The notes under the pieces were generated by a model. The model saw only the letters and a program-made list of their open reading frames with translations. It searched no databases and was not told the DNA's origin. Below are positions 219 through 62,876 of a DNA stretch of 64,000 nucleotides, in pieces (the stretch's first letter is position 1; the number at the start of each line of letters is the position of its first letter). Origin of the DNA: Methanohalobium evestigatum Z-7303. Its GTDB lineage: Archaea > Halobacteriota > Methanosarcinia > Methanosarcinales > Methanosarcinaceae. Position numbers and translations under genes: made by a program. The stretch lies in NCBI RefSeq assembly GCF_000196655.1, contig NC_014253.1, forward strand, positions 248,001-312,000, given 5' to 3'.

Positions 219-488
219 TTAAAGACCCCTGCCAAGCCCAACTACCTGAACGTTGTCCACGCCGGGAACGTTCATAAAGGCTTCTTCAACTTCTTCGGTT
301 CCGCCTTCTTTGTCACTTACAGAAATATCAAGCATAAGTGCTTTTAACCCGAAGGCTATTGGTTCTTCAGATGTACCGTGTAATTCAGTCTCTTCTGGTA
401 ACGCTTCTTCAATCTTCTTTTTAAGCTCTTCAAGGTCGGTATCTACACTTTCAGGCATTACTTTAATTTTTGCGGCGACTTGTCCCAT
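219..488 (-). CDS. ef1b: Translation elongation factor aEF-1beta
   Basis: This 89-residue protein is the archaeal guanine nucleotide exchange factor that reloads EF-1alpha with GTP. It has the family length and typical blocks: MGQVAAKIKVMP at the start, the helix LEELKKKIEEAL, the central IAFGLKALMLDISVSD strand and the end block VPGVDNVQVVGLGRGL. It sits 28 bases after a small zinc ribbon gene, and that pairing is common in archaea. The ATG at 488 is preceded by AGAGGTG, a good ribosome binding site. Nothing is unusual. Confidence 0.96.
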   Translation of the reverse strand: MGQVAAKIKVMPESVDTDLEELKKKIEEALPEETELHGTSEEPIAFGLKALMLDISVSDKEGGTEEVEEAFMNVPGVDNVQVVGLGRGL

Positions 489-516
489 TATTTACACCTC
501 TGAATATAAAAATACT

Positions 517-687
517 TCATGGTCCCTCAAACCCACAATTAGGACATGTATATGGGTTACTTTGCTGTCTACAGTTTATACATCTACCAAGTTCAGTAGA
601 GCACGAAGGACACGGAAAACGTACAAACCCACGTTCTGCCAGATGTACTCCGCATGTTGTACAGTATTTGACTTCTGGTTTTGCCAT
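517..687 (-). CDS. Small zinc ribbon protein (HVO_2753-like)
   Basis: A 56-residue protein, too short for most gene finders, with four metal-binding knuckles: CTTCG (residues 9-13), CPSC (26-29), CINC (36-39) and CPNC (48-51). The layout fits two zinc fingers, as in the archaeal family that includes haloarchaeal HVO_2753 and is often encoded next to aEF-1beta. Its exact role is unknown; a link to RNA or translation is inferred from the neighbour. The ATG is at 687 and the stop is TGA at 517. It is 28 bases upstream of aEF-1beta, so the two are probably co-transcribed. Confidence 0.85.
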
Positions 688-801
688 TAGATCTCTCCTA
701 TGTTATTTTTTAGTTTGGGATCAATATGAGATTATAGTATATCAATCTGAATTATTTTTTAATATATTATGCAGTTTTCAATTAAATAAGCGGTATATAA
801 T

Positions 802-50788: not shown

Positions 50789-52111
<1,323 letters not shown>

Positions 52112-60983: not shown

Positions 60984-61775
60984 ATGAGCACAAATTCATC
61001 CGGTGGACAAAATATAACCATTTTAAAAATAGGTGGAAGTGTTATAACTGACAAAAATGCAGACGAAAATTTTGCAAAGCATGATGAAATTGACCGGATT
61101 TCTAAAGAAATTTCAGAATTTGATGGTAAACTTGTAATTGTCCATGGTGCAGGCTCATTTGGTCATCCGCAGGCTAAAAAATATCAAATAACAGATAAGT
61201 TTGATGCAAAAGGTTCAATAATCACGCATAAATCAGTAAATCTATTAAATCAGCTTTTTATTGATTCACTTATTGATAACAATGTTAATGCAGTTTCTGT
61301 GCATCCGATGAATAATACTATATCAAAAAACGGGCGGATACAGGATATGTTCCTTGATAACCTATACTACATGCTTGATAATAAAATAGTTCCTGTTTTG
61401 CATGGTGATGTGGTAATGGATAAAAACACAGGAACATCAATTATTTCAGGGGATCAAATAGTTCCATATCTTGCAACTCAAATGGGAGCCATTAGGATAG
61501 GGATAGGTAGTATTAAGGAAGGGGTTCTGGATGAAAATGGAAAAACATTAAAGCTTATAACACATGACAATTTTGCAAATGTGAAAAACAATATTGGTTC
61601 ATCAGAAGGTACTGATGTGACTGGCGGGATGCTTGGAAAAGTAACTGAACTTTTAAAACTTAATGAACTTACAGGTTCAACGTCTTATATATTCAATGCC
61701 GGTAAACCAGGGAATGTGTCGATGTTTTTACAAGGAAATGATATAGGTACATCGATTACAGGTTCAGGGCAATAG
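60984..61775 (+). CDS. ipk: Isopentenyl phosphate kinase, stop codon TAG
   Basis: A 263-residue amino acid kinase-fold enzyme converting isopentenyl phosphate to IPP, the hallmark of the archaeal mevalonate route. Motifs: ILKIGGSVITDK near residue 12, IVHGAGSFGHPQAKKY near 52 with the substrate-binding histidine, and HGDVVMDKNTGTSIISGDQIV near 145. The frame ends at TAG (61773-61775), the pyrrolysine codon; ATG ATG AAA and then TAA follow in frame. The core is complete at the TAG, so normal termination is likely. Confidence 0.96.
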   Translation: MSTNSSGGQNITILKIGGSVITDKNADENFAKHDEIDRISKEISEFDGKLVIVHGAGSFGHPQAKKYQITDKFDAKGSIITHKSVNLLNQLFIDSLIDNNVNAVSVHPMNNTISKNGRIQDMFLDNLYYMLDNKIVPVLHGDVVMDKNTGTSIISGDQIVPYLATQMGAIRIGIGSIKEGVLDENGKTLKLITHDNFANVKNNIGSSEGTDVTGGMLGKVTELLKLNELTGSTSYIFNAGKPGNVSMFLQGNDIGTSITGSGQ

Positions 61776-61799
61776 ATGATGAAATAACGGGATTTTATT

Positions 61800-62876
61800 A
61801 TGAGTACATCCAGACGAAAAATAGAACATTTAAATTTTTGTGCCCATAGTCCGGTAGAATCCAGAAAAAAGGGTTCAGGATTTGATGATATAACTTTAAT
61901 ACATCGTGCACTTCCAGAAGTTAATATGGATGAAATAGACCTTTCTACACGGTTTCTGGGGAAAGATTTCAGTGCACCATTCATGATAGCCTCCATCACA
62001 GGAGGACATGAAGATACAATACCTGTAAACAGAGCTCTTGCAAAAGCAGTTGAAGAAATGGGAGTAGGTATTGGTGTTGGAAGTCAGAGAGCAGCCATCG
62101 AAGATCCAGCCCAAGAAGAATCATTCAGGGTAGTTCGTGATGAAGCTCCTAATGCTTTTATTTACGGTAATGTGGGAGCGGCACAGATAAAGGAATACGG
62201 TGTAGAGGTTGTTGAAAAACTCGTGGACATGATAGACGCAGATGCCATGGCAGTTCATCTGAATTTTTTGCAGGAAGCAGTTCAACCTGAAGGAGATCGT
62301 GATGCATCCGGAACACTGGAAGCAATCTCTGAAATAACTTCTCTTAATATACCGGTTATAGCAAAAGAGACTGGTGCAGGTATATCTCATGAAGATGCAG
62401 TTCTTCTAAAAAATGCAGGAGTTTCAGCAATTGATGTTGGTGGTGTTGGTGGAACCAGTTGGTCGGGTGTGGAATTTTATCGTGCAAAGGACAGGAATGA
62501 TTTAAGGTCACAGCTTCTTGGTGAAATATTCTGGGACCATGGGATACCTACAGCATCGGATTTAATCGAGTGTGATGTATCCCTGCCTCTTATTGCTACA
62601 GGAGGTATAAGATCTGGGTTGGATATAGCCAAATCAGTTACAATGGGTGCAGATGTTGCCAGTGCCGCGTTACCATTTGTTGAACCAGCGTTAAAAAATG
62701 AGCAGGAAGTAATTAATACATTATCAAATTTCATCTATCAATTAAAAGTATCCATGTTTCTCTGTGGATGTAAAACAGTAAGCGATTTACGTGATGTTCC
62801 GGCAGTAGTAACCGGCTGGACTCGGGAATATCTTTTACAAAGAGGATTTGAAATCGATAAATTATCCATGCGGTAA
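61800..62876 (+). CDS. fni: Isopentenyl-diphosphate isomerase, type 2
   Basis: A 358-residue FMN- and NADPH-dependent enzyme interconverting IPP and DMAPP. Blocks: SSRRKIEHLNFCAH-like start, APFMIASITGGHEDTIPVNRALA, GIGVGSQRAAIEDP, AVHLNFLQEAVQPEGDRD and DVGGVGGTSWSGVEFYRAKD. It is typical of archaea, which lack the type 1 enzyme. It lies 24 bases after the TAG of ipk. Positions 62877-62985 are a short promoter-like spacer. Confidence 0.96.
   Translation: MSTSRRKIEHLNFCAHSPVESRKKGSGFDDITLIHRALPEVNMDEIDLSTRFLGKDFSAPFMIASITGGHEDTIPVNRALAKAVEEMGVGIGVGSQRAAIEDPAQEESFRVVRDEAPNAFIYGNVGAAQIKEYGVEVVEKLVDMIDADAMAVHLNFLQEAVQPEGDRDASGTLEAISEITSLNIPVIAKETGAGISHEDAVLLKNAGVSAIDVGGVGGTSWSGVEFYRAKDRNDLRSQLLGEIFWDHGIPTASDLIECDVSLPLIATGGIRSGLDIAKSVTMGADVASAALPFVEPALKNEQEVINTLSNFIYQLKVSMFLCGCKTVSDLRDVPAVVTGWTREYLLQRGFEIDKLSMR

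Follow-up and report, generated by a model that had tools for sequence, protein, structure and literature searches.

The TAG stop codon of ipk and the scarcity of TAG terminators in Methanohalobium evestigatum Z-7303

The ipk gene of M. evestigatum ends with TAG and is followed in frame by a TAA, in a genome that encodes a pyrrolysine (Pyl) system. This locus raises the question of whether such a TAG acts as a stop or as a pyrrolysine codon, and of how it came to lie next to a second stop. We examined the locus in a window of 64,000 nucleotides, which is the whole stretch analyzed here (C1:248001-312000 of the M. evestigatum genome, G000), and compared it with the rest of the genome and with related genomes. 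The features of the window are listed in Table 1.

An earlier note, made from the letters of the window, had described ipk as its only TAG-ended gene, with a TAA four codons past the TAG, and had stated that the genome encodes tRNA-Pyl and PylS. All three observations were borne out. The stops of the 58 window genes called by codon usage were TAA in 41, TGA in 16 and TAG in one, ipk. When read directly in the frame of its start, the 3' end of ipk is GGT TCA GGG CAA TAG ATG ATG AAA TAA, and pylT and pylS were both found in the same window. The profile score of ipk exceeded the curated equivalog cut-off of 120, identifying the product as isopentenyl phosphate kinase (IPK). The other long TAG-ended ORF of the window, at 253-690 (+), was not called by the gene caller and had no NCBIfam match, and was therefore taken as spurious.

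The conserved IPK domain, as delimited by the family profile, finishes at residue 258, and the C-termini differ between relatives. Thus, whether the TAG is a stop or is read through, the IPK products differ by at most four residues, which lie past the conserved domain. Further, at approximately four TAG terminators per 1056 genes (see below), the probability of at least one terminal TAG in a window of this size is approximately 0.21, so that the single TAG is unremarkable by itself. The informative fact is the rarity of TAG across the genome rather than the count in the window.

Table 1. Features of the window around ipk and the pyrrolysine genes (positions are those of the window).
Feature	Position	Strand	Basis
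ipk, isopentenyl phosphate kinase, TAG after 263 codons	60984..61775	+	NF040647, 216 bits, residues 12-258 of 263
TAG, end of ipk, derived from TAA	61773..61775	+	direct read; TAA aligned in the sister species and in two next-genus genomes
ATG ATG AAA TAA, three codons and in-frame back-up TAA at 61785-61787	61776..61787	+	same letters in the sister species, lacking in the next genus
fni, type 2 isopentenyl-diphosphate isomerase, next downstream of ipk	61800..62876	+	TIGR02151
mevalonate kinase, upstream of ipk, stop TAA	60064..60978	+	NF003036
pylT, tRNA-Pyl, CUA anticodon	52257..52328	-	ARAGORN
pylS, pyrrolysyl-tRNA synthetase	50789..52108	-	NF007083, 698 bits

TAG as a terminator across the genome

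The genome comprises 2,406,232 bases in two contigs, of which C1 has 2,242,317 bases. The survey covered the window and 20 kb stretches across C1, amounting to 1.264 Mb (52% of the genome), and genes were called by codon usage. The comparison counts covered the sister species, a Methanolobus-like genome and an M. burtonii-like genome. Among the 1056 genes called in M. evestigatum, 709 ended with TAA, 337 with TGA and 10 with TAG. The TAG share of called ORF ends was approximately 0.8-0.95% and remained steady at stricter thresholds. TAG accounted for 17.5% of the stop triplets in non-coding DNA, at which rate approximately 185 TAG ends are expected in 1056 genes (binomial p = 5e-72 for 10 or fewer).

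Genes were also called with TAG as a sense codon. Many TAGs then fell before the true starts, and a TAG was kept only if the upstream coding score was positive. A count of in-frame coding extensions after TAA or TGA was dropped because it was confounded by same-frame neighboring genes. When ipk and one case from this second calling method were included, the apparent TAG terminators numbered approximately four per 1056 genes (approximately 0.4%). The genome-wide shortage that the earlier note had expected was therefore found in this 52% sample: the terminators of M. evestigatum show a strong depletion of TAG, which is almost purged.

Three of the 10 TAG-ended ORFs, encoding a DUF2148 protein, a transglutaminase-like protein and IPK, had the next TAA or TGA only 1, 3 or 4 codons on. 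A fourth short case, a DUF5371 gene (TAG ATG GGT TAA), surfaced when TAG was called as sense. The excess of near back-up stops that the earlier note had likewise anticipated was present, with a TAA or TGA within four codons of the stop in 4/4 TAG terminators and in 24.5% of TAA-ended genes (p = 0.0036), but it is suggestive only, because n = 4 and because extension length was one of the grounds for taking a TAG as terminal or sense, so that the 4/4 figure is in part circular.

No TAG ORF sampled in this 52% of the genome had a tail of 5-57 codons; all extensions were either at most 4 or at least 58 codons long. In contrast, the extension lengths after TAG formed a continuum in a Methanolobus-like genome (G041), in which 8% of genes were TAG-ended and a stop within four codons was found in 6/25 short-tail cases (Fisher p = 0.009 versus 4/4 in M. 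evestigatum). The probable M. burtonii-like genome (G018) came near the M. evestigatum pattern, with seven TAG ORFs having extensions of at least 48 codons and one having a near stop.

In the sample of the sister genome (G001), 5/103 genes were TAG-ended. Nearly all of these came from one contig (L072; G001:C1, 10.8 kb), and the value was set aside. This contig carries four clustered TAG-ended genes, one of which encodes 1460 aa with carboxypeptidase-regulatory-like repeats, and five of its proteins had no match when compared with PHROG. A mobile element is one possible origin of this contig and faulty binning another; it contrasts with the TAG-poor remainder of G001.

Order of changes at the ipk stop

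The sister species, whose IPK is 97% identical (L002), has CAA TAA ATG ATG AAA TAA at the corresponding position. In two genomes of the next genus (L005 and L012), the aligned ipk stop is TAA, and there is no stop at +4. The TAG of ipk is therefore derived. By parsimony, the back-up TAA would be a gain of the Methanohalobium lineage, and TAA would have turned into TAG later, in M. evestigatum. We considered whether ATG ATG AAA TAA was a selected read-through tail and rejected this, because the same codons stand behind TAA in the sister species and are not conserved in the next genus.

The DUF2148 gene ends with TAG TGA in M. evestigatum versus TAA TAA in the sister species, and the position of its TAG is occupied by AAA, followed by a stop, in two relatives from other genera. 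The DUF5371 gene ends with TAG in both Methanohalobium species. Its next TAA or TGA is at +3 in M. evestigatum and at +9 in the sister species, and thus a near second stop is not always retained. A DUF5371 relative that is 99% identical is present in a public Methanohalobium MAG (L190), which is probably the sister species G001. In Methanolobus and its relatives (L205-L219), DUF5371 is often TAG-ended, with tails that are unlike each other and unconserved; TAG is probably a plain stop in these genes.

We consider it likely that, in a pyrrolysine-using genome nearly purged of TAG terminators, the change of the ipk stop from TAA to TAG was tolerated through a pre-existing downstream TAA. The comparison with the sister species shows that a single A-to-G substitution turned the ancestral TAA into TAG once the two species had split. 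The change was probably tolerated since a TAA already stood four codons downstream in the genus, so that read-through would cost little; it would add only Pyl-Met-Met-Lys, at a C-terminus that is variable between relatives. Judging from published work on UAG, aRF1 and Pyl-tRNA would compete at this codon, and the product would be IPK, IPK-Pyl-Met-Met-Lys or a mixture set by the pyrrolysine supply. The rarity of TAG stops and their near back-ups would then come mainly from the loss of unbacked TAG stops, and not from back-ups evolving for TAG.

In-frame TAGs with coding extensions

Seven of the 10 TAG-ended ORFs had in-frame extensions of 58-864 codons, which were mostly homologous coding sequence. 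These included the known pyrrolysine enzymes MtmB (PF05369) and MttB (TIGR02369). An in-frame TAG with a homologous downstream part was also found outside the methylamine methyltransferases, at loci L051, L105 and L096. The first of these is a flavin reductase-like gene (L051:10847-11545, +; C1:2138847-2139545) whose codon 175 is an in-frame TAG; this codon is CAG in the sister species and CAG, AAA, CCC or GCA in other relatives. Apart from the TAG, the gene is intact: it is full length and 96% identical to that of the sister species, the 57 downstream codons are homologous, and the NAD-binding domain of the protein spans the TAG. This suggests that TAG is readable outside the methylamine methyltransferases in M. 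evestigatum. The product is a candidate non-methyltransferase pyrrolysine protein.

Further, a SAM methyltransferase gene (L105:12732-13535, +) has one in-frame TAG that is spanned by orthologues in two other genera, and two genes for PAS histidine/sensor kinases (L096:3849-7040 and L071:12875-14290, both +) each have a single in-frame TAG followed by a long coding extension. These three are further candidates for pyrrolysine proteins, or are broken genes. No homologues were found for the last of the seven, an orphan ORF with an extension of 88 codons (L094), whose TAG could be a terminator that has no back-up. Two weaker internal-TAG ORFs (L059:19339-19845 and L107:674-1213) had no Pfam match and were left out of the counts.

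These genes bear on an alternative to which we give somewhat less than an even chance, namely that TAG has been completely reassigned in M. evestigatum, has no stop function, and is always pyrrolysine, so that IPK would always carry a Pyl-Met-Met-Lys tail. The lack of 5-57 codon tails among the sampled called TAG genes and the mostly homologous coding in the long extensions argue for this reading, as do genes that are intact although TAG stands at a variable site, the alignment of the DUF2148 TAG with AAA-then-stop in two relatives of other genera, and the near two-class TAG pattern of the M. burtonii-like genome, as opposed to the continuum in the Methanolobus-like one. Kivenson and others reportedly described in Science in 2025 an archaeal code in which all TAGs are pyrrolysine, which would favor the same reading. 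The two-class patterns of M. evestigatum and the M. burtonii-like genome fit such a code.

However, the sole aRF1 found with both NIKS and GGQ (L032:7352-8593) looks normal and would probably recognize UAG; in a paralogue (L059:5112-6263, -; C1:957112-958263), GGQ is replaced with GGW. The tails that would follow the conserved DUF5371 TAG are OMG and OMVNRRONI in the two Methanohalobium species, so the tail seems unconstrained. Further, a UAG reporter in M. acetivorans mostly terminates, with 20-30% read-through (PMC2933860). If the stop function of TAG were nevertheless wholly lost, which we hold to be a little short of an even bet, the normal product of this extremely halophilic methanogen would be an IPK, a core enzyme of the lipid pathway, with pyrrolysine as the fourth residue from its end, acquired since the two Methanohalobium species diverged, and the flavin reductase, the sensor kinases and the SAM methyltransferase would also contain it.

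Back-up stops and known pyrrolysine systems

It is unlikely that back-ups were selected as such, with TAG-ended genes gaining and keeping a near TAA or TGA because read-through is harmful. The near stops in all four short-tail TAG genes (p = 0.0036) are consistent with this possibility, and so is the statement, attributed in PMC9499178 to Zhang et al. (2005), that close downstream UAA or UGA codons hold unintended UAG read-through in check in pyrrolysine-using archaea. However, the back-ups of ipk and DUF2148 stand beside a TAA stop in the sister species and so preceded the TAG or are independent of it, and DUF5371 of the sister species has no TAA or TGA inside four codons. The earlier note had proposed that selection against read-through produced the back-up. 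The depletion of TAG and the four near stops agree with such selection, but the claim that the back-up was made because of the TAG is not supported, since in ipk and DUF2148 the sister species already has it behind TAA. These two genes and the +9 stop of DUF5371 favor a filter over selection building back-ups: we infer that selection removes TAGs without a back-up and that TAG survives where a back-up happens to exist.

That chance alone explains the data, with TAG the least common stop because the genome is rich in A+T, and with another stop close behind the first in a quarter of genes, is very improbable: the 24.5% of TAA-ended genes with TAA or TGA inside four codons and the approximately 21% of such windows that hold a terminal TAG accord with it, but chance is refuted as the cause of the TAG shortage by the difference between a TAG share of 17.5% among non-coding stop triplets and one of no more than 0.95% among ORF ends (p = 5e-72), and the related Methanolobus-like genome has 8%.

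The loss of unbacked TAGs, which we prefer, can be set beside published systems. UAG avoidance with nearby UAA or UGA stops has already been described in pyrrolysine-using archaea (PMC9499178; PMC3941956), in which UAG stops make up <6% (PMC9723677). M. evestigatum resembles them in having pylT and pylS, in the depletion of TAG as a terminator, and in the enrichment, at small n, of TAA or TGA just past its few TAG terminators. It differs in that its value of approximately 0.4% in the sample is well below the published <6%, and in that the order of events can be read at ipk, with the back-up first and the TAG second. Thus, the general idea of TAG avoidance with back-ups is sound and already in the literature, whereas the cause proposed in the earlier note has to be turned around; of greater interest is how extremely scarce TAG terminators are in M. 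evestigatum.

In M. acetivorans, tRNA-His guanylyltransferase acquired pyrrolysine by neutral evolution, according to the account of Heinemann et al. (2009) in PMC2933860. As related there, that case is similar to ours in having a species-specific TAG, readable as pyrrolysine, in an ordinary gene and at a site that is not essential, and its closest parallel here is the flavin reductase-like gene (CAG to TAG). In contrast, the ipk TAG replaces a stop and not an amino acid codon, and therefore read-through would lengthen the protein. The stop of pylB is TAA in M. barkeri and TAG in M. mazei, M. acetivorans and M. burtonii (PMC2933860), which is likewise an exchange of TAA and TAG at one stop position between close pyrrolysine-using relatives; for ipk, unlike pylB, the downstream back-up and the polarity of the change were examined. 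The ipk gene is a clear polarized case of a reassigned stop codon returning at a gene end, in which the second stop arose earlier than the TAG. M. evestigatum also adds a genome in which TAG looks almost wholly converted from a stop to an amino acid.

Within the same family, two g14 genomes that are >90% complete (G105 and G107) had no PylS above the curated cut-off, and two others of the same genus (G110 and G111) have PylS. The g14 genomes offer a natural experiment on the return of TAG stops once pyrrolysine has been lost.
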